From: a virus
Length of the DNA stretch: 58,942 bases
Virus record (IMG/VR): IMGVR_UViG_3300032284_001272
Coordinates: 1 to 58,942 of that record
Direction: 5' to 3' (one strand)
The notes beneath the pieces are model-generated. The model was given only the letters and a program-made list of their open reading frames with translations. It was not told where the DNA came from and did no database searches. This document shows, in pieces, positions 3,457 to 58,942 of the stretch (position 1 is the stretch's first letter; the number at the start of each line of letters is the position of its first letter). The translations under genes and the position numbers were made by a program.

Positions 3457-4023
3457 TTATAGCCCATCACCCTCCATGAAATTCAGCGTAACCTTGACGC
3501 AAGCGATGCGGTCTGTGAAACGTGCGGCGGCGTCAGCGGCTTCCCTGCTCAAGTTGCCAAGACCATAATGAATGCCGCCATCATCGGTTTTATAGACGTT
3601 AATCCACATATCCTTCACATGGACCTGACGAACCTCAACAAGGTCATACTCACCCGTTGGGAAGTCCGTCTTACCACTTTTGTTCCATACGCAAGGCACC
3701 GCCCCTTTTGGGGCCATGATAGCGCCATGGATTTCATATGGCGCAGCACCTGTGTCGCTATAGATCGTGACATCCAAACCGCTCTTGGTTACGTACTGCT
3801 TTGATTTCGTCACAAATTCATTACCGTTTGTCATTGGCTTGCCCATGTTAATTGTTTGATTTCTCTTGCGCGAATAACCATTCAGCGTGATTTGCTGATT
3901 GACAGCACCGACACTGCAACCGTATTTTGTGGCGATGTCCTTTACCTCCACACCTGAAAGGTATTCCTTCTTCAGGTTCTCAAGCTTCGCATCTGTCCAC
4001 TTAACGTATTTGCCTTTAATCAT
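3457..4023 (-). CDS. HTH domain fused to a KQY-type domain of unknown function
   Basis: 188 residues. The N-terminus (KWTDAKLENLKKEYLSG, then DIATKYGCSVGAVNQQI) is a helix-turn-helix of GcrA/Myb-like style. From about residue 72 a second domain begins with KQYVTKSG and ends RIACVKVTLNFMEGDGL. The same domain forms the whole of the gene at 4627-4983 (KQYRTRDK ... RIACVKVEIDCAEGEGL), with shared IHGAI, DLVE/DLIE and WxNxY positions. This looks like one domain used alone and once more as a DNA-binding fusion. GAGGAGAGG precedes the ATG. The role is unknown; a regulatory function is inferred only from the HTH. Confidence 0.75.
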   Translation of the reverse strand: MIKGKYVKWTDAKLENLKKEYLSGVEVKDIATKYGCSVGAVNQQITLNGYSRKRNQTINMGKPMTNGNEFVTKSKQYVTKSGLDVTIYSDTGAAPYEIHGAIMAPKGAVPCVWNKSGKTDFPTGEYDLVEVRQVHVKDMWINVYKTDDGGIHYGLGNLSREAADAAARFTDRIACVKVTLNFMEGDGL

Positions 4024-4325: not shown

Positions 4326-4627
4326 CACTCATCTCCCTTTAGTGCGGCACGGGCAACCTCACCGCATTGGCAAGAAAATCCGCAGTCTAAATTTTCAATA
4401 TTCTTCAACGCTTCCCGCAGTCGCTCAATTTCTTTTCCTCGTTCAACAAATTGCAACGTCATGCCGTCAACAATTTTTGAAACGGTTTCATGCGCGTCCC
4501 GCAACTCGTTACGCTGCTTGCGTAACTCCTCAATCTCGTTTGCAGCCCTATCAAGTAAAGCGCCGTTATCCGCCTCATACTCGTAGAATACTTTGTCCAA
4601 GTCTCTTAACTCTTCAAGGATATCCAT
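4325..4627 (-). CDS. Coiled-coil protein, ALKGDE family
   Basis: 100 residues from the ATG at 4627, which overlaps the TGA of the upstream gene and follows GGGGAGGG. It has EIEELRKQRNELRDAHE and GKEIERLREALKNIE coiled-coil segments and ends VARAALKGDE. It is the minus-strand paralogue of the genes at 58289, 58558 and 58797/1. The last 20 or so bases of the gene are the repeated box that also supplies the next gene's ribosome-binding site. Function unknown. Confidence 0.8.
   Translation of the reverse strand: MDILEELRDLDKVFYEYEADNGALLDRAANEIEELRKQRNELRDAHETVSKIVDGMTLQFVERGKEIERLREALKNIENLDCGFSCQCGEVARAALKGDE
4328..4348 (-). repeat. ALKGDE / ribosome-binding repeat box (one of four)
   Basis: The sequence GCCGCACTAAAGGGAGATGA occurs at 215-235 (+), 4328-4348 (-), 58535-58555 (+, first base A) and 58774-58794 (+). 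Each copy encodes the AALKGDE tail of one gene and carries the Shine-Dalgarno of the next, with a TGATG or ATGA stop/start junction. It looks like a unit that spreads with gene cassettes. Confidence 0.8.
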
Positions 4628-4983
4628 CACAATCCCTCCCCTTCTGCACAATCAATCTCGACCTTCACGCAAGCGATGCGGTTATTATCAGCCATTTTGT
4701 TTGCTAGATTTTTAGTTTCCCAAATAGCTGTTTGTAAATTTGTTGAATACAAATTCAGCCAATACGTCCGCTTGATGCGTGGTTTTGCTTCAATGAGGTC
4801 AAATGGACTATCTTCATCATCAAATTGAGAACGCCATCGTCCGTCGTTTCCCCATGTTTCAACTTCCCATCCATCACCAACCTTTATTGCTCCGTGAATA
4901 GGACCACTGGAAGCGCCATCCGTCGCATAAATACGAACTTCACGTTTGTCGCGGGTGCGATATTGTTTGTCTTTGCTGATCAT
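4627..4983 (-). CDS. Stand-alone KQY-domain protein
   Basis: 118 residues from the ATG at 4983, preceded by GGGAGATGAGTG. KQYRTRDKREVRIYATDGA, a GPIHGAI loop, a PFDLIE strand and the terminal RIACVKVEIDCAEGEGL match the C-terminal domain of the product of 3457-4023. Proteins with 'KQYxTRDGREVRIYATD' are, to my knowledge, widespread in alphaproteobacterial phages without assigned function. It is the first gene of this minus operon. Confidence 0.75.
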   Translation of the reverse strand: MISKDKQYRTRDKREVRIYATDGASSGPIHGAIKVGDGWEVETWGNDGRWRSQFDDEDSPFDLIEAKPRIKRTYWLNLYSTNLQTAIWETKNLANKMADNNRIACVKVEIDCAEGEGL

Positions 4984-5006
4984 CACTCATCTCCCAAATC
5001 ATGTGA

Positions 5007-5101: not shown

Positions 5102-5131
5102 GGTTATGGTTACGGTTATGGTTATGGTTGC
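5102..5131. repeat. Five tandem GGTTAY hexamers
   Basis: Five consecutive hexamers (GGTTAT, GGTTAC, GGTTAT, GGTTAT, GGTTGC) lie between the two phased arrays. The remainder of the spacer up to 5250 is T-rich and contains short GGCC/TTTT runs but no gene I can support. Confidence 0.8.
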
Positions 5132-5250
5132 GCTTTCATATTTTAAATCATGAAGCGTCATGGTGACGTTTTGGCCCTTTGGCCTTTTTGAGATTTTCGG
5201 GTTTTCGGTTTTCCTACGGTGACCTGATCTCCCGGGCGACGGTGAAAAAA

Positions 5251-5346
5251 GAACAAAACAAGAACATCGCGTTTTTGAGAACAAAAAAAGAACAAAAGGT
5301 GAACAAACCCCGTTTTGGAGAACAAAACGTGAACAAAAACAGAACA
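5251..5346 (+). repeat. Helically phased GAACA array, left
   Basis: GAACA starts at 5251, 5262, 5279, 5290, 5301, 5320, 5331 and 5342. Spacings are 11, 17, 11, 11, 19, 11, 11, so the repeats form three groups, each with an 11-bp period. Consensus GAACAAAAN. The same core in the opposite orientation forms the array at 8948-9036. An 11-bp period puts all sites on nearly the same face of the helix, as in plasmid centromere (parC) or replication iterons. The binding protein is not known. Confidence 0.85.
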
Positions 5347-6499: not shown

Positions 6500-7291
6500 A
6501 TGTTGAACGAAATTCACGCTCTCGAAACTCTTCCATCATCCGCCCTTGCTAGCGAGCCGCATTTCAGCCGCGCCCCCGCATATGCTCACATTAAGACAAG
6601 TGATATTGCACAATTATTGCGCGATGAATTCGATATGTTGCCCGTCTCATCATCCGAACGTCGGGTGCGTCGTTCTGATAAGCAAGGGTATCAGCGGCAC
6701 CTTGTGAAATTCCGTCGGTCCGATTTGATGCATACGGATAAGCCGCAGGTGCCGGAATTGCTGGTGCTTAACGCCCATGATGGCAGTTTTGCCGCGCACC
6801 TATGGACAGGCTATCACCGCTTCGCATGTGCGAATGGATTAGTTGTCTGCACTAGCAGTTTCGGGAAAGTGTCAGTGCCGCATCGCGGCGATGCATGGGG
6901 TAAAATCATAGACGGGGTTTATCGCGTGATTGATAATGCTAACGAGGCGGAAAGGGCCATAGAAAATTGGAGCGGCTTGGATATGCCTTGGGTTGATCAA
7001 TTATCCTTTGCTAATGAGGCGGTCAAAATCCGATATGACGATCCAAATGATTGCCCTGTTAATCTCGGGGATTTGCTTTTAATGCGACGTTCGGAAGATC
7101 AAGGTTCGGACCTTTGGCGTGTGTTCAATCGGGTGCAGGAGCATTTGATTAGGGGCGGGCTTGTCGGTCGCAATAGTGAAGGCGAGCGCCGGACCATGCG
7201 ACGGATTAAGTCACCAGAGCGCGACGTCGGGATTAATTCCGCCTTATGGCAATTGGCGGATCAATACGCCCAAACCCGCGCAATCGCGTAG
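6500..7291 (+). CDS. DUF932 family phage/plasmid protein
   Basis: 263 residues. Recognised by the DUF932 pattern: RHLVKFRRSDL, then LLVLNAHDGSFAAHLWTGY, FACANGLVVCTSSFGKVSVPHRG and a helical region around VYRVIDNANEAERAIENW. This family is found on phages and conjugative plasmids; its biochemical role is not established. It is the first plus-strand gene of the island and is followed by a hairpin leader repeated before the next two genes. An AAAGGG sequence lies upstream of the ATG. Confidence 0.85.
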   Translation: MLNEIHALETLPSSALASEPHFSRAPAYAHIKTSDIAQLLRDEFDMLPVSSSERRVRRSDKQGYQRHLVKFRRSDLMHTDKPQVPELLVLNAHDGSFAAHLWTGYHRFACANGLVVCTSSFGKVSVPHRGDAWGKIIDGVYRVIDNANEAERAIENWSGLDMPWVDQLSFANEAVKIRYDDPNDCPVNLGDLLLMRRSEDQGSDLWRVFNRVQEHLIRGGLVGRNSEGERRTMRRIKSPERDVGINSALWQLADQYAQTRAIA

Positions 7292-7350
7292 CCATTGGCA
7301 AGGGCGCAATCTCCACGGGTTGCGCCTCTCCAATTGCTATCAAGGCAATT
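7292..7350 (+). promoter_or_regulatory. Leader with two mutually exclusive hairpins (copy A)
   Basis: Stem 1 pairs CCATTGG (7292-7298) with CCAATTG (7330-7336), enclosing GGCGCAA (7303-7309) pairing with TTGCGCC (7320-7326). Stem 2 pairs AATTGC (7332-7337) with GCAATT (7345-7350). Stems 1 and 2 share bases 7332-7336, so only one can form. The same design appears at 7648-7704. It sits between the DUF932 stop and the next gene. Confidence 0.6.
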
Positions 7351-7377
7351 GACTTAACCTAAAGGAAAGGGAAAAAA

Positions 7378-7647
7378 ATGATTTATATAGCAACTGACAT
7401 TCATGGCCGTGGCCTTCGTCATGTGACCGCTTATGATTCGCGCAAAGACTTTTTAAGCACAGCACTGCAATGGCTTGACCGATCCGACAAATATTTTTCG
7501 ATTAAAGCGCGGTCATCAATCAATGACATTTGTGATGCACTTCGCGACAGTGGGGCAGGCTTTGGTGCGCGATCACATCATCGCGTCACGCGACGCGAAG
7601 CCTTTAAACTCGCGCGCGATGGAATTAAAACATCCGGTTTTGCGTGA
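7378..7647 (+). CDS. Hypothetical protein in the island
   Basis: 89 residues, basic in the second half (SHHRVTRREAFKLARDGIK), beginning MIYIATDIHGRGLRHV. The opening resembles a beta strand and loop, but no family is recognised. A purine-rich AAAGGAAAGGG site precedes the ATG. It lies in an apparent three- or four-gene plus-strand operon with the DUF932 gene. Confidence 0.7.
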   Translation: MIYIATDIHGRGLRHVTAYDSRKDFLSTALQWLDRSDKYFSIKARSSINDICDALRDSGAGFGARSHHRVTRREAFKLARDGIKTSGFA

Positions 7648-7704
7648 CAATCAGTTAGGGCGCATCTTTCGGGGTGCGTCTCACTGATTGCCATGGTGGC
7701 AATC
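7648..7704 (+). promoter_or_regulatory. Leader with two mutually exclusive hairpins (copy B)
   Basis: Stem 1 pairs CAATCAGT (7648-7655) with ACTGATTG (7683-7690), enclosing GGGCGCA / TGCGTCT. Stem 2 pairs GATTGCC (7686-7692) with GGCAATC (7698-7704). The shared GATTG makes the two stems alternatives, as in attenuators. Layout and several blocks (AGGGCGCA, CGGG, TGCG, GGCAAT, AACTT) match copy A. Confidence 0.65.
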
Positions 7705-7738
7705 AACTTGACGTAACGTTATGAAAGGGTTATATAAA

Positions 7739-8068
7739 ATGGATATCGGGATTGAATTAAATCGCGAATTGGACCGGATGCATAGTCGAATTCGAACGCT
7801 AGAAGAAACGAAACAAGATGAAACAGGCGGGAAAGAGACAGCCGCCTTATGGCAAAGGATTTTTGCGCTTGAAGCTGATTTAAGGGATATGGCTAAGGAT
7901 TTAAGCGCGGCGGAAGGCAAGCTTGCTATCCTGCAGGATAGTTTAGAGGATAAAATCAGCGAGGCGATCAAAGCCGCAATGGTTGAGATGGCGGAAGATA
8001 AAATCGAGGAAGCAATCCAAGACGCCATTGAGAAGCTTCCTTATCGTCTTTCAATCACATTGGATTAA
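7739..8068 (+). CDS. Coiled-coil protein in the island
   Basis: About 109 residues from the ATG at 7739, preceded by GAAAGGG; an in-frame ATG at 7721 would add six residues. Nearly the whole protein is predicted coiled coil: RELDRMHSRIRTLEET, then ALEADLRDMAKDLSAAEGKL, then an acidic helix (EDKISEAIKAAMVEMAEDK). No homologue recognised. Such a protein could multimerise on the phased DNA arrays that flank the island, but no DNA-binding motif is seen. Confidence 0.7.
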   Translation: MDIGIELNRELDRMHSRIRTLEETKQDETGGKETAALWQRIFALEADLRDMAKDLSAAEGKLAILQDSLEDKISEAIKAAMVEMAEDKIEEAIQDAIEKLPYRLSITLD

Positions 8069-8078
8069 GGGGCGGATC

Positions 8079-8318
8079 ATGGGGCAAGGTGCTACTCTTG
8101 AATTCTATGATGCGGACGAATTTTCGTCATATGTTGAGGCGAAAAAGAAAAACGCCGTCAAAGGCGTACACCTAGATTACGCCGATAAAGACACGCTCGC
8201 GCAATCGGCGGTATGGGATGCATTGGAGATAATTCACGCCGCTTTATCAGTCGCGGATAAAAGAGACATGAAGCTTCGTTATGTCTTAACACGCGATAGC
8301 GTGATTTTAGACTGCTAG
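8079..8318 (+). CDS. Hypothetical protein, last gene of island operon
   Basis: 79 residues from the ATG at 8079, which follows GGGGCGG by a short gap. Starts MGQGATLEFYDADEFSSYVEAKKKNAV and ends KLRYVLTRDSVILDC. It follows the coiled-coil gene by 10 bases and is followed by a strong terminator. No family recognised. Confidence 0.65.
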   Translation: MGQGATLEFYDADEFSSYVEAKKKNAVKGVHLDYADKDTLAQSAVWDALEIIHAALSVADKRDMKLRYVLTRDSVILDC

Positions 8319-8370
8319 CGTATCAGGTAAAAGCCCAGGCGATTGAGCCAATAGGCTAAGGCAAAACATA

Positions 8371-8402
8371 AGGGGTCGGTCCATTGGATCGGCCCCTTTT
8401 TC
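8371..8402 (+). terminator. Rho-independent terminator of island operon
   Basis: AGGGGTCGGTCC pairs with GGATCGGCCCCT (G-T wobbles only) across a three-base loop and is followed by TTTTT. Confidence 0.85.
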
Positions 8403-8707
8403 GTTACGCTATCGAAACAAATTGGAATTCGGTTTCACTATGGCTTAACAGAGTTAAGGATATCGCGGGGCATGGGGCCAATATAGGCTAAATGGAACGA
8501 TAAAGAAGGGCATAGAGCCGCCTTGAGCACAGTGTCCGCTATGGTGGTGGCTTGGAACCCATAAAACCCGCCAGTGACCGTTTAAATCGGTTTTAGAGCT
8601 ATATGGCACCCCACACCATAACAGAGCCGCCAAAAGGCGAGAATTCGCCTTATGAGAATACGTTAGTATTCGAATAAGCTAGGTTCCTAATAGATGGTTC
8701 ATATATA

Positions 8708-8803
8708 GACCCCCCCCATAATGGCCCCCCTCCTCATTGCTTAAAAGAAAACTAAGACCCCCCCCATTTGTGCCCCCCTCAAGGATGGCACCCCTCCCAC
8801 TAA
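8708..8803. repeat. C-rich direct repeat, 48-bp period
   Basis: GACCCCCCCCAT recurs at 8708-8719 and 8756-8767, and GCCCCCCTC follows at the same 48-bp offset in both copies. A third, degraded GGCACCCCTC lies near 8787. Confidence 0.8.
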
Positions 8804-8814
8804 ATATGGCATGA

Positions 8815-8911
8815 CGTAACAGTAGCGACACGTTACGTTAGGGCGGAAAGCTTCCGTAACCTTTGGGAAACTTTACGCAACGTCACGTAACATTGTTTAC
8901 GTTACGTAACG
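8815..8911. repeat. Cluster of CGTAAC / GTTACG boxes
   Basis: GTAAC or its complement occurs at 8816, 8832, 8856, 8887, 8901 and 8906. The last two form the perfect 12-bp palindrome CGTTACGTAACG (8900-8911). Spacing is irregular, unlike the adjacent GTTC array. Confidence 0.7.
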
Positions 8912-8947
8912 GCATATGACGTTGACGCAAGGAGATGACGATGGGTA

Positions 8948-9036
8948 AGTTCATGGTCTGTTCTCGTTTCGTTCCCGTTATGTTCTTGTTTTGTTCACGG
9001 TTTGTTCTAGGTTTACTATCTGTTCACGATTTGTTC
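8948..9036 (-). repeat. Helically phased GTTC (GAACA) array, right
   Basis: GTTC starts at 8949, 8960, 8971, 8982, 8993 and 9004, six copies at exactly 11 bp, then at 9022 and 9033, again 11 bp apart. Most copies read TGTTC. It is the reverse complement of the left array (5251-5346), which also has eight sites, so the two arrays face each other across the island. Confidence 0.88.
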
Positions 9037-9272
9037 TTTGGCTGCGGTAACCCCCTACCCCCCTTTTGCCTGACCCTCCTACACGGATCAGTACCCCTCC
9101 CTCCGCCAGATAAAACCATTTTCCCACTAATTTGCTTTTTTCCAAACAACAGCGCAGCGGGCCAAAGGCTACCCCCGGGTACCCCTTTACAAGTACCTAT
9201 ACCCGCCGAAGGCTACCCCCAAAAAGGTACCCCCATATGAAAGGAACCTTTAATACCGCAAACTCATATTAA

Positions 9273-9306
9273 AGAAAAACCGCCACAACCTTTCGATCAT
9301 GGCGGC
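9273..9306 (-). terminator. Rho-independent terminator (minus strand)
   Basis: On the minus strand GCCGCC ... GGCGG followed by TTTTTCTTT. It ends the minus operon containing 9352-9686. Confidence 0.75.
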
Positions 9307-9704: not shown

Positions 9705-9779
9705 TGGAGCGGGCGATGGGGTTTGAACCCACGACATCCTGCTTGGAAGGCAGGAACTCTACCACTGAGTTACACCCGC
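9705..9779 (-). tRNA. tRNA-Gly (anticodon UCC), CCA encoded
   Basis: A full cloverleaf folds on the minus strand. Acceptor stem GCGGGTG/CGCCCGC has one T-G wobble. The D-stem is ACTC/GAGT and the anticodon stem is CCTGC/GCAGG, with loop CTTCCAA (anticodon TCC). The T-arm is GTGGG-TTCAAAC-CCCAT, followed by discriminator T and encoded CCA. It decodes GGA and GGG. It lies between a terminator (9782-9818) and the gene at 9444-9686, so it may be transcribed by read-through or its own promoter. It would help translate the phage's very Gly-rich fibre and GGR-motif proteins. Confidence 0.95.
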
Positions 9780-11223: not shown

Positions 11224-11252
11224 TTGACATAACGTAAACTCATGAATATTAT
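11224..11252 (+). promoter_or_regulatory. Late promoter at the terminase small-subunit start
   Basis: TTGACA (11224-11229), 17 bp, TATTAT (11247-11252). The predicted transcription start is about 11259-11260, directly at the in-frame ATG at 11260, so the transcript could be leaderless. A TATAAT at 11218-11223 could serve a second, weaker upstream promoter. Confidence 0.6.
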
Positions 11253-11805
11253 TCAACTCATGAGCGAAACTAATGAATCATCATTTCCGGAACGTCCTTA
11301 CGGCAAGCGTTCGAAGACGGGGAAGCGCATGGGTAGAAAACCGACGAAACCGCCTGTTGAGAAAAAGCAGCCGGAAATCGAGAAGAAAACCCGTAAGCGC
11401 AGGTTGCAGGACAGTGATCTGGTAAAGAAGGCCATTATGGGCCTCGCTAAGCGCCAATTTACGCTGGATCAAATCGCGGATGTGGTTGGTGTCAGCAAGA
11501 CTTGGTTAAAGGAAAATTACCAGCAGGAAATTAAATCCGGCAGGGAGGTCGCGGATGCGTTGGTCGTTGAGAACTTATACCAGCAAGCGATGAAGGATAC
11601 GCCCGCGTCAATTCAGGCGGGTATTTACCTGACGAAGGCTCGCCTTGGGTGGAAGGATAAGCCTGACGAGGACAGCAGACCGCAAGTTGTTTTTAATTTT
11701 GGTGAACTATCTTACGAAGAACGCCAAGTATTGATGGAAAAGATTCAAGAGAAAAAACGTCTAGCCGCTAGAACAATTGAAGGTGAAATAGTCAGCGATG
11801 AGTAA
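11242..11805 (+). CDS. Terminase small subunit
   Basis: 187 residues from the ATG at 11242; the ATG at 11260 gives 181 and fits the promoter better. A basic N-terminal tail (GKRSKTGKRMGRKPTK) is followed by a helix-turn-helix (RQFTLDQIADVVGVSKTWLK) that would bind the packaging site. A helical oligomerisation part and a C-terminal segment follow. Position just before the large subunit, with 8-bp overlap, supports the call. It recognises phage DNA and starts packaging. Confidence 0.85.
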   Translation: MNIIQLMSETNESSFPERPYGKRSKTGKRMGRKPTKPPVEKKQPEIEKKTRKRRLQDSDLVKKAIMGLAKRQFTLDQIADVVGVSKTWLKENYQQEIKSGREVADALVVENLYQQAMKDTPASIQAGIYLTKARLGWKDKPDEDSRPQVVFNFGELSYEERQVLMEKIQEKKRLAARTIEGEIVSDE

Positions 11806-13393
11806 AATACTACACGCGAAGACTATGGAAGAGGCTATTAATCAGTACCCAGAGGCGGCTGAGTTAGAATTAGATCGACTTAATTGCGAAGAAAGTCTTG
11901 TTAATTTTGTTGAAGGTGCATGGAAATACATTGACCCAAACCCCTACGTCTACGGATGGCACTTGGAAGCCATTGCTGAACATCTTCAAGCAATTGCGCG
12001 AGGAGAGATCCGCAGACTTGTCATTAATGTCCCACCAAGAACTTCGAAATCGTCTATGGTCTCTGTATGTTTCCCAGCATGGGTCTGGGCACAATCAGAA
12101 ACCGGACCATTATCTGGACCACATGTCCAATTCCTCTTCGCATCCTACGCCCAATCCCTCTCCATCAGAGACAGCATAAAAACGCGCCGTCTGCTGGAAA
12201 GTAAATTTTACCATGACAGGTGGGGCGGCAAATTTAAGATTACGTCCGACCAGAATACCAAAGTACGTTTTGATAACGATAAGGGCGGCTATCGCCTCGC
12301 GACCTCTGTGGACGGGGCTTTGACGGGTGAAGGCGGGTCCGTAATCGTGGTGGACGATCCTCACAACGCCAATGAAGTGGAGTCGGATCTTGTCCGTCAG
12401 GGTACGCTGGAGTGGTGGGATCAATCCATGTCCACCCGTCTCAACGACCCTAAAACAGGCGCATACATCGTTATCATGCAGAGGCTTCATGAGTCTGACC
12501 TAACCGGGCATGTGCTGGAGAAAAGCAGGGGTGAGTGGGTTCATGTCTGCCTCCCCATGCGCATGGAGACGGATCGTCGATGCATCACGCAGTGGTTTGT
12601 GGATGATCGAGAGGAGGGGGAACTCCTTATTGAGGATCGTTTTGGCGAAGCGGAAGTTAAATCTCTAGAAAGCTCTCTTGGCCCATTCGCAGCGGCTGGT
12701 CAGCTTCAACAACGCCCCAAACCAAAAGGCGGGGGTATTTTTAAGCGTGATTGGTGGGTTCTTTGGGACGAGGCGGTCTCTGGTGCAGAAGGCCTACCCA
12801 AGACAGTATTCCCGACGTTCGAGTATATGATCGCGTCTCTGGACACCGCGTACACCTCAAAACAAGAGAACGACTTCTCCGCCATGACCATCTGGGGAGT
12901 GTGGACGGATCGTCAGGATAACCGACGCCTCATGCTGGTCTACGCGTGGCAGGACAGGTTGGAATTCCCGCAACTTACAAAAAAGGTGGCGGAACTCTGC
13001 ACCAAATTTAAAGTGGACAAGCTCCTCATTGAATCTAAGGCGGCGGGGTTATCCGTCGCGCAGGAGTTGCGCGCTCACTTCTCCCGAGAAGATTGGGGCA
13101 TTCAAACCGTTGACCCGGGCAGAGGTGACAAGGTAGCGCGAGCGTATGCGATCCAGCATCTGTTTGCTGACGGCATGGTTTACGCGCCGGATTACGAATG
13201 GGCAGATAAGCTTATTACTCAGGCGGAATCGTTTCCGAAAGTAACGCATGATGACTTAGTTGACAGTATGACTCAGGCTTTACTTCACCTCCGTGTAATT
13301 GGATTTGCTCAAAAGCCTCAAGAACTTGTAGCGGAGCGTACAGATAGTATGCTATACAGACCGCAAAAGCCTCAACCACTTTACCCGGTGTAA
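11798..13393 (+). CDS. Terminase large subunit
   Basis: 531 residues. The ATPase domain has a deviant Walker A (VINVPPRTSKSS, about 75-86) and Walker B (SVIVVDDPHN, about 181-190). The C-terminal RNase H-like nuclease has IASLDTAYTS (about 344), LLIESKAAG and HDDLVDSM. It powers DNA packaging through the portal and cuts the concatemer. The circular assembly suggests permuted ends from headful packaging, but cos ends cannot be excluded from sequence alone. TerS and TerL genes overlap by 8 bp. Confidence 0.96.
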   Translation: MSKILHAKTMEEAINQYPEAAELELDRLNCEESLVNFVEGAWKYIDPNPYVYGWHLEAIAEHLQAIARGEIRRLVINVPPRTSKSSMVSVCFPAWVWAQSETGPLSGPHVQFLFASYAQSLSIRDSIKTRRLLESKFYHDRWGGKFKITSDQNTKVRFDNDKGGYRLATSVDGALTGEGGSVIVVDDPHNANEVESDLVRQGTLEWWDQSMSTRLNDPKTGAYIVIMQRLHESDLTGHVLEKSRGEWVHVCLPMRMETDRRCITQWFVDDREEGELLIEDRFGEAEVKSLESSLGPFAAAGQLQQRPKPKGGGIFKRDWWVLWDEAVSGAEGLPKTVFPTFEYMIASLDTAYTSKQENDFSAMTIWGVWTDRQDNRRLMLVYAWQDRLEFPQLTKKVAELCTKFKVDKLLIESKAAGLSVAQELRAHFSREDWGIQTVDPGRGDKVARAYAIQHLFADGMVYAPDYEWADKLITQAESFPKVTHDDLVDSMTQALLHLRVIGFAQKPQELVAERTDSMLYRPQKPQPLYPV

Positions 13394-17899: not shown

Positions 17900-18298
17900 A
17901 TGGCTAAGAATAGTATGAAAATGACTCATACGGTTGACCCCGTAAATGAGTTGCGAGAGTCTGTAGGCGATCTTTCCGGCATTAAAATTTATAACAATTG
18001 GATTTTGTGCGCGATTTATAAGCGCCCTGAGAAGACTGCAAGCGGAATTATCCTCACCGACAATACCCGTAAAGAAGATGAGTATCAGGGTAAGGTAGGA
18101 TTGGTCCTTAAAAAAGGCCCATTGGCTTTTGTGGACGACGAAACAACAACTTTTCAAGAACAAAACGTGAACATAGGCGAGTGGATTGTTTTCAGATCGT
18201 CTGATGGATGGTCTTTGACCGTCAACGGAGTGCTTTGCCGCATGATGCAAGACATTCAGATCCGCATGGCCATCCCTTCACCTGATGTGGTGTTCTAA
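17900..18298 (+). CDS. GroES-like co-chaperonin (Cpn10)
   Basis: 132 residues. GIKIYNNWILCAIYKRPEKT matches the GroES start strand. TASGIILTDNTRKEDEYQG matches the mobile loop region (SAGGIVLT in GroES), followed by KVGLVLKKGP, a VNIGEWIVFRSSDG strand and GVLCRMMQDIQIRMAI. An N-terminal extension of about 24 residues and a short insert set it apart from bacterial GroES. It would cap host GroEL during capsid-protein folding, like T4 gp31; its place between portal and scaffold fits. The next gene starts near its stop. Confidence 0.8.
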   Translation: MAKNSMKMTHTVDPVNELRESVGDLSGIKIYNNWILCAIYKRPEKTASGIILTDNTRKEDEYQGKVGLVLKKGPLAFVDDETTTFQEQNVNIGEWIVFRSSDGWSLTVNGVLCRMMQDIQIRMAIPSPDVVF

Positions 18299-54795: not shown

Positions 54796-54996
54796 GGATT
54801 TGATCCACCGCTTTATATCGCATTTAAATTTGAAAATAGAGCGAGCGTCTGAAGGGGTAGAGGAGCGGACGAACATCCCCTCCTTCCCATCATATGTAAC
54901 CCAGAATTTGACATGCCGACTAGTCCTCTCAATAGTATGGACGGAAACGCCCAAACTTGTGAGGAGGTCATTTGCTTCCCGAATGTGCTTTTGCAT
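54772..54996 (-). CDS. Small conserved phage protein (TPSD type)
   Basis: 74 residues: IREANDLLTSLGVSVHTIER, HVKFWVTYDGKEGMFVRSST and PSDARSIFKFKCDIKRWI. This HicA-like or dsRBD-like layout with 'SxTPSDxRxxxNxxxDIRR' recurs in alphaproteobacterial phages. No activity known. It overlaps the GcrA-like gene by 29 bases. Confidence 0.7.
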   Translation of the reverse strand: MQKHIREANDLLTSLGVSVHTIERTSRHVKFWVTYDGKEGMFVRSSTPSDARSIFKFKCDIKRWIKSLNNSPAA

Positions 54997-55447
54997 TTAA
55001 ATCTTCCGGCATTTTAAAATACCTCATGTAATGCTCTTTGCACCAAGACTTGCCAAAGACCGTTACTTCGCCGCAATATTGGGTCTCAACACCGCAGACA
55101 TCGCCAATTACCGCCCTGCAATGAAATATCGACAACTCGTCGATCTTCTTGGTCCCGGTAGCTTTATGTTCAACGGGCCACTTCTTATCAAATTCGAACA
55201 TCTCGTTTCGTTTCCCGAAAGGGCTGAGCCGGGAATATTCCCGGCGCGGTTTCCGAGGTTCCTTTGGCGGCTTTTCCTTCTTTACGCGAACCGTCATAGA
55301 TTTGATGGAGTTACGATGCATCACCCCAATGATGGAGTTGCGACTCTTCCCAACAAACATCAGGGCTATCTCACGGGCGGTTTTGCCCTCTGAAACAAAT
55401 AACCGAACCTTATCAATATCTTCGTTAGTCCATGACTGTGTGTACAT
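54968..55447 (-). CDS. GcrA-like transcription regulator
   Basis: 159 residues. WTNEDIDKVRLFVSEGKTAR, EIALMFVGKSRNSIIGVMHR is the GcrA helix-turn-helix. A basic linker (KKEKPPKEPRKPRREYSR) leads to a C-terminal Cys motif (FHCRAVIGDVCGVETQYCGE, KSWCKEHY) like the GcrA sigma70-binding end. GcrA is a cell-cycle regulator of Alphaproteobacteria that works with DNA adenine methylation. A phage copy could redirect host sigma70 or cell-cycle promoters. GGAGGAAAG precedes the ATG. Confidence 0.88.
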   Translation of the reverse strand: MYTQSWTNEDIDKVRLFVSEGKTAREIALMFVGKSRNSIIGVMHRNSIKSMTVRVKKEKPPKEPRKPRREYSRLSPFGKRNEMFEFDKKWPVEHKATGTKKIDELSIFHCRAVIGDVCGVETQYCGEVTVFGKSWCKEHYMRYFKMPEDLNAKAHSGSK

Positions 55448-56271: not shown

Positions 56272-57111
56272 ATGTCGCATATTGCCACACATTGGGCCAT
56301 GGAGCAGACGGGAATTTCACCGTCAGCGAAATTAGTTTTGCTTGTTCTGGCTGACTACCACAATCAAACGGACAACATGTGCTACCCGTCTAAGGCGGCG
56401 TTGGCGAAGAAGTCATGCATGGAAGAGCGCACCGTCCAACGTTCCATAACGGAACTTGTTGACGAGAAGCTTATCACGATTGAGCCGCGTTACGATCTTA
56501 ATGGCCGCCAAACCTCCAATCAATACGCCCTCATCATGGGGGAGGGGAGGGTGACAAATAAGGGGGGGGAGAGGGTGACAAATAAGACCCCCCTTGAACC
56601 AGTAACAATAAACCATACAGATACTTCGTATCTGGCGGATGCCAAGAAATCGTTCTGGGATGAGGCGGTTGGTATCTTGTTGGTGATGGGTATCGCGGAC
56701 GACGCCGCAAAGCCATTAATCGGAAAATGGTTAAGAATGGCGGGCAAGAACGAAGATAAAGTGCTAGAGTTGCTGCAGTCTGCGCTTGACAAGGCGGTAC
56801 GAGAAATCGTCCCATGGATGGAGGCAGCACTACGCAACACATCGGTACGTTCGCAAAAAGAAAAAGAAGTTGCGGATGTATTTGAAGAATTGAAGGCATT
56901 GGAGAAGGCGAATGACCCCGACAGAAGCAGTGGAAAGGATGCTGGCACCGTTCAGCTTAAGCCACATGCGAAACCCCGCCCTGTTCGTAAGAATGGCGGT
57001 GGAAGCCTTAAAGAATTACTCGCCGGAGGTGCTGTCCCAGTTAGGAAGCCCCTCTACAGGCCCGCTGACGAAGTCAAAGTTCGCCCCGACGATAGCGGAG
57101 ATGATTTCTGA
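56272..57111 (+). CDS. Winged-helix replication protein
   Basis: 279 residues. ISPSAKLVLLVLADYHNQTD, YPSKAALAKKSCMEERTVQR, SITELVDEKLITIEPRYDLN form the HTH_36-type winged helix of phage replication proteins (lambda O-like position before the primase genes). A linker encoded by two perfect 16-bp repeats follows, then a helical middle and a Pro/Lys-rich tail ending in an acidic RPDDSGDDF. It may bind the origin. A GCCC/GGGC hairpin (56136-56162) lies upstream. Confidence 0.8.
   Translation: MSHIATHWAMEQTGISPSAKLVLLVLADYHNQTDNMCYPSKAALAKKSCMEERTVQRSITELVDEKLITIEPRYDLNGRQTSNQYALIMGEGRVTNKGGERVTNKTPLEPVTINHTDTSYLADAKKSFWDEAVGILLVMGIADDAAKPLIGKWLRMAGKNEDKVLELLQSALDKAVREIVPWMEAALRNTSVRSQKEKEVADVFEELKALEKANDPDRSSGKDAGTVQLKPHAKPRPVRKNGGGSLKELLAGGAVPVRKPLYRPADEVKVRPDDSGDDF
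56547..56586 (+). repeat. 16-bp direct repeat inside the replication gene
   Basis: GAGGGTGACAAATAAG occurs at 56547-56562 and 56571-56586 (24-bp period) in a G-rich stretch. It encodes GRVTNKGGERVTNK. In lambda the origin iterons lie inside gene O, so this is an origin candidate. Confidence 0.65.
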
Positions 57112-58797: not shown

Positions 58798-58942
58798 TGG
58801 ATATTGATAAACGAAATTTGAGTATTGTTGAACGGTTGGAAGAACTACGAGATTTAATGAAGCAAGATATAGACCGTGCAGTTTTGCAAGATGCAATGGA
58901 CGAGATTGAGAAACTGCGTGAAGAACGCAGTCGGTTGCGGGA
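58797..58942 (+). CDS. 5' part of the ALKGDE-family gene that crosses the contig ends
   Basis: ATG at 58797 overlaps the preceding TGA. The frame continues through the terminal repeat; merged with position 1 onward it reaches the TGA at 239-241 (88 residues in all). The intact frame across the junction confirms that the ends join. Confidence 0.9.
   Translation, partial: MDIDKRNLSIVERLEELRDLMKQDIDRAVLQDAMDEIEKLREERSRLR
58823..58942. repeat. Terminal direct repeat, copy 2
   Basis: Identical to bases 1-120. See copy 1. Confidence 0.97.

Follow-up and report, generated by a model that had tools for sequence, protein, structure and literature searches.

The genome of a tailed phage carries two arrays of GTTC half-sites repeated at 11-bp steps, one of them in a gene-free island between facing terminators, and the paired unit from which both are built recurs over many viral contigs. 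This unit shares its framework with the LexA (SOS) box of alphaproteobacteria, and we tentatively propose, from the sequence comparison and with somewhat less than even confidence, that the arrays are clustered platforms for host LexA or a close LexA-like dimer. Within a limited literature search, such arrays appear to be undescribed so far.

Two arrays of GTTC half-sites in a tailed-phage genome

The window, by which we mean the whole stretch of DNA that was analysed (58,942 bases), is a tailed-phage genome whose ends, 1-120 and 58823-58942, are identical, so that it is probably complete and circularly assembled. Its recognised genes include those for the terminase, portal and primase-helicase, for an O-like initiator with HTH_36, for recombination proteins (Erf and exonuclease) and for a GcrA-family protein. 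Among the proteins scanned, which included only part of the large structural ones, no integrase, CI-type repressor, LexA or partition protein (ParM, ParR, ParA, ParB) was recognised, and no temperate functions were found in the genome. A search for known RNAs returned only a tRNA-Gly (TCC) at 9705-9779, among leftward small genes. The features referred to below are the following.

5251-5345, minus strand: array 2, eight GTTC half-sites in runs of 3+3+2, intergenic, upstream of the leftward gene starting at 4986
8370-8398, plus strand: strong intrinsic-terminator-like hairpin (13-bp stem, T tail) that ends the rightward genes 6500-8318
8399-9277, no strand: gene-free island of ~880 bp that holds array 1, flanked by two facing terminators
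8814-8924, no strand: ACGTAAC/GTTACGT elements, of which several are palindromes, making up the island's second cluster of repeats, directly before array 1
8949-9007, plus strand: array 1, first run, six GTTC half-sites at exact 11-bp steps, forming five overlapping GTTCN7GTTC pairs
9022-9036, plus strand: array 1, second run, two GTTC half-sites (GTTCACGATTTGTTC), 18 bp past the last half-site of the first run
9051-9104, plus strand: block of C tracts on the 3' side of array 1; its CGGATCAGTACCCCTCCCTC is found unchanged in the relative L009
9278-9307, minus strand: strong intrinsic-terminator-like hairpin (13-bp stem, T tail) that ends the leftward genes 11158-9444
11242-13393, plus strand: terminase genes located downstream of array 1, the small one at 11242-11805 and the large one at 11798-13393
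54968-55447, minus strand: GcrA-family gene (PF07750, E 8.5e-15)
56272-57111: HTH_36 / O-like initiator gene, ~10 kb away from array 1 on the circular map

The half-sites of array 1 start at 8949, 8960, 8971, 8982, 8993, 9004, 9022 and 9033, exactly as an earlier, sequence-only reading had reported, with the first six in strict 11-bp register. The periodicity which that reading had emphasised was not equalled in any control: 198 of 200 dinucleotide shuffles contained no 11-bp run of GTTC/GAAC longer than two and the other two reached three, no 4-mer other than GTTC makes a run longer than three at this step in the whole window, and lag 11 at 8955 gives the top autocorrelation of the window among lags 5 to 39 (49 of 72 identities). 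In the window we counted 16 copies of the pair GTTCN7GTTC where 1.88 +/- 1.31 were expected; none of 100 shuffles reached this number. Array 2, which had been missed in the earlier reading, is flanked by a DUF7227 gene and by the start of the leftward gene at 4986. Further lone pairs at 18158, 21687, 28672, 38939 and 40775 look incidental, as they mostly lie within genes or over a ribosome-binding site; those at 18158 and 21687 are also present in the 99%-identical contig L007 and absent from other relatives.

Because it lies in a gene-free island between facing terminators, array 1 appears to be tied to no neighbouring promoter and is unlikely to be an ordinary operator; the open reading frame 8935-9240 that spans it is probably spurious. 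Within the island C tracts occur on either side of the array, and the ACGTAAC/GTTACGT cluster possibly represents candidate sites for a second protein. Downstream of array 2, the leftward genes 3457-4023 and 4627-4986 look like paralogues with similar C-terminal halves (RIACVKV...GDGL and RIACVKV...GEGL), and a short GGTTAYGGTTAYGG repeat at 5105-5135 separates the leftward operon from this array. Genes of the DUF932 family or similar ones were seen near arrays in several unrelated phages (6500-7291 in the window; L185, L204 and L090), and the DUF932 protein, when used as query, found no relatives among viral contigs.

A conserved pair of half-sites recurs in environmental phages

Over ~120 viral contigs the conserved unit is Y-GTTC-(A/C/T)CGKTTT-GTTC-Y, whose two half-sites share a face of the helix. 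We analysed 304 runs, in which T or C precedes the first GTTC in 96%, C or T follows the last in 88%, and the spacer reads A/C/T, C, G, T/G, T, T, T. At the outer flanks of these runs TTT is not kept before the first GTTC, nor is ACG kept after the last, and since the flanks carry neither, the unit is a GTTC pair with its spacer rather than a free-standing 11-bp iteron. Phage runs consist of 2-8 tandem half-sites, odd lengths (3, 5, 7) being about as frequent as even ones, and the distances from run to run (4, 6, 7, 14, 18, 19 and others) are out of helical phase. The earlier suggestion that array 1 would offer protein-binding sites on one face of the DNA is supported.

The array is also retained in some related phages, in which the sequence-only reading had proposed to look for it. 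Among ~80 viral contigs whose large terminase is related, L009 and L029 keep GTTC pairs followed by C tracts in the matching gene-free region, and in many others of these relatives the array was not found at the matching place. Similar arrays occur in many unrelated phages. A looser pattern mostly matched coding DNA or simple repeats, and the stricter pattern GTTCNNGNTTTGTTCNNGNTTTGTTC took its place. This pattern was found in at least 119 stretches of IMG/VR, versus 6 for a scrambled pattern; bacterial and archaeal genomes (257 Gb) gave just 65, spread over many taxa. The array loci include related phages, so that counts over them, here and below, are not independent. In viruses the arrays are compactly clustered, with more than 20 half-sites in the largest clusters, and two arrays frequently face each other; the strand layout of 111 clusters was plus then minus in 33, minus then plus in 10, mixed in 3 and confined to a single strand in 65. 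A nucleotide search with array DNA against phage and plasmid records gave no matches, possibly on account of the low-complexity filter, and isolated roseophages (Rhodobacteraceae) and pelagiphages (Pelagibacter) with related terminase or GP88-like genes were without arrays. Arrays of similar style were also noticed at 5016-5132 of L222, a contig binned as Bacteroidota and possibly a misbinned phage, and at 6452-6960 of L207, within an open reading frame of a contig binned as an Oligoflexia bacterium.

The unit matches the framework of the alphaproteobacterial LexA box

The host of the window phage is probably an alphaproteobacterium, given its GcrA-family gene and the mostly alphaproteobacterial nearest isolates; we infer the hosts of array phages, as a GcrA match was found in just 4 of 39 array records, 2 of them above the cut-off. 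The core of the alphaproteobacterial LexA box, for example in Caulobacter, is GTTCN7GTTC, and Caulobacter promoters have single LexA boxes in about 97% (PMC12700426). In whole genomes we found a Y-GTTC-N7-GTTC-Y box close upstream of lexA in 25 of 30 alphaproteobacterial lexA genes. Boxes of the form GTTCN7GTTC also precede genes that we take, from our own reading of the sequences, to be imuA-like. Moreover, GTTCNNGTTTTGTTC is enriched in alphaproteobacterial genomes (62 versus 11 for the reversed control, one repeat-bearing genome excluded), and host boxes carry a pyrimidine at -1 in 35 of 37 and at +15 in 28 of 37. Host and phage boxes thus have in common two direct GTTC 11 bp apart, pyrimidine flanks, a G/C at position 7 and a T tract at 8-10, that is, (G/C)TTT in the spacer.

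The two differ, however, at spacer positions 5-6, which are TA or TT in hosts and AC, CC or TC in phages, and in their arrangement, since host promoters contain single boxes whereas phages carry tandem runs of 2-8 half-sites. The phage consensus YGTTCACGKTTTGTTCY has one occurrence in 385 alphaproteobacterial genomes, which we estimate to be about chance level, and a plain host LexA box with the host spacer was rejected on this ground. Judged from sequence, the phage site could be a LexA site of high affinity that is avoided in chromosomes, or a different though related protein could recognise it. As the earlier reading proposed, the binding protein may be new, since the spacer preference is unlike that of host LexA boxes; that reading had overlooked the known LexA framework.

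No LexA gene was found in any of 15 array phages, no protein family was common to the ten array phages that we compared (a comparison that very small divergent proteins could escape), and the genes beside the arrays, in ~39 groups, included no recurrent family or regulator except assorted small terminases. These results favour a host factor as the binder. In line with the LexA-type reading, the motif also goes with two large-terminase families that are unrelated to each other and with several small-terminase families. A common phage-encoded binder was rejected on the lack of a family common to the ten phages and of a common neighbour.

According to the LexA-type reading, arrays 1 and 2 would be clustered platforms on which a dimeric DNA-binding protein recognises Y-GTTC-N7-GTTC-Y, and several LexA or LexA-like dimers would be lined up next to each other at a single place in the phage DNA. 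Enclosed between terminators and apparently in no promoter, array 1 would then be likelier to act in repressor recruitment or titration than in promoter control, while array 2 and those arrays that lie between divergent early and terminase genes may be operators coupling phage transcription to the DNA-damage state of the host. The arrays, their pair structure, recurrence in unrelated phages and position, and the framework match are observed; LexA binding, and whatever effect it would have, we infer. If LexA does bind, phages without temperate genes would sense or titrate the host SOS repressor through DNA alone. This reading is weakened by the different spacer positions 5-6 together with the chance-level occurrence of YGTTCACGKTTTGTTCY in alphaproteobacterial genomes, by the odd runs (3, 5, 7), which non-overlapping dimers do not explain, by the linkage to terminase genes and C/G tracts described below, which LexA function does not predict, and by the related roseophages and pelagiphages that have no arrays.

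Two known systems invite comparison. Half-sites of CtrA, TTAA-N7-TTAA, also recur at 11 bp. The CtrA sites of alphaproteobacterial phages ('lytic deferment', PMC9437464) are likewise clustered sites for a host master regulator, but they involve another protein and another sequence, and their binding was tested experimentally. Phages controlled by LexA (GIL01 and others, cited in PMC9437464) resemble the window phage in that their genomes contain host LexA sites, which here are candidate sites; there, the sites lie at promoters of switch genes, whereas array 1 is apparently at no promoter, has eight half-sites and belongs to a phage in which no temperate functions were found.

The foremost alternative, which we regard as rather unlikely though still serious, is that the arrays are operators for a small phage-encoded regulator, or a host regulator yet to be described, that is unrelated to LexA, and that the likeness to the LexA box is a coincidence. 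The spacer code that departs from host LexA boxes and the failure of the phage consensus to exceed chance in host chromosomes would both be expected of such a protein, and a very small divergent one would have slipped past the ten-phage comparison. On the other hand, the match to the LexA framework spans both GTTC, the 11-bp step, the pyrimidine flanks, the G/C at position 7 and the T tract, and no regulator recurs beside the arrays.

Arrays lie upstream of terminase genes and near C/G tracts

Where a large terminase was recognised, the array lay upstream of it in 56 of 58 scorable loci, at a median distance of ~1.2 kb and often just before the small terminase, and 36 of 83 arrays sit between divergent genes. 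Tracts of C6/G6 or longer occur within 150 bp of 44 of 101 arrays versus 7 expected. Both regularities are consistent with a packaging (pac/cos) element, in which a small-terminase ring or another packaging protein would bind the array upstream of the terminase genes. We nevertheless consider this explanation improbable. The same motif accompanies several small-terminase families that are unrelated to one another (PHROGs 1482, 51, 1595, 309) without being tied to one, which led us to reject binding by the small terminase as the only explanation; the small terminase gene of the window is 2.2 kb and five opposing genes away from array 1, and array 2 is far from the terminase; and contig ends within 1 kb of arrays are only weakly enriched (26 versus 15.4 expected). 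As a separate observation, in the C/G runs at arrays (L272-L385) the left-hand run is usually G and the right-hand one C.

Set between facing terminators and containing C tracts as well as two clusters of repeats, the gene-free island also resembles a replication origin whose iterons would be read by the phage-encoded O-like initiator or by another replication protein, and the facing arrays (33 of 111 clusters) recall two-sided origins. An origin is nonetheless doubtful, since the array phages have no initiator in common: in the ten compared, the replication protein found most often, a primase-helicase, is present in 6, and the O-like protein is not widely shared. In addition, the O-like gene of the window lies ~10 kb from array 1, and the GC skew of the window merely tracks gene direction.

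If LexA does not bind, the arrays would still constitute a recurrent phage cis-element beside the packaging genes of many environmental phages, with another binder, for which the consensus Y-GTTC-ACGKTTT-GTTC-Y would be a ready bait.

parS sites are interleaved with a subset of the arrays

In 11 array loci we found 27 chromosome-type parS sites (TGTTTCACGTGAAACA, at most 1 mismatch) interleaved with the arrays, versus 0 for 12 scrambled palindromes.

L282, L298, L310, L315, L322, L339, L343, L356, L365, L381 and L185: chromosome-type parS, as many as five in one locus, among arrays upstream of terminase genes

Since these interleaved sites are of host type, array regions can gather sites for host proteins, a point in favour of the LexA-type reading. 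In the reverse test a GTTC pair was found near parS in just 2 of 120 parS-bearing viral contigs, so the link between parS and arrays is confined to a subset.

These parS sites and the 11-bp spacing are what could be said for a ParR/parC-like centromere of an extrachromosomal prophage, an analogy drawn in the sequence-only reading. Like array 1, parC of plasmid R1 consists of direct repeats at 11-bp spacing; unlike it, the phage unit is a pair with a conserved spacer and not an iteron, and no ParM, ParR, ParA, ParB, integrase or repressor was found among the proteins scanned of a terminally redundant, probably complete genome. The analogy thus did not hold, and we regard a centromere as highly improbable. 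A chance or low-complexity repeat, for which only the T-rich spacers speak, is ruled out for practical purposes by the shuffles, the scrambled-pattern control and the conservation in L009 and L029.

A broader extension of the LexA-type reading, which we offer as speculative and on balance unlikely, is that the arrays belong to a widespread undescribed phage element in which sites for host chromosome-management proteins, LexA-type and sometimes parS, are brought together in a single island free of genes; the phage DNA, as it replicates, would then soak up the host SOS repressor and partition protein. If so, repair genes would be derepressed and division stalled during infection by a DNA decoy rather than a protein inhibitor, a strategy against the SOS repressor of which a limited literature search found no description. 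As a side observation, L511, L538, L547, L557 and 13 other viral contigs contain two to five exact parS sites, mostly without nearby GTTC pairs, and these phages may use host ParB.
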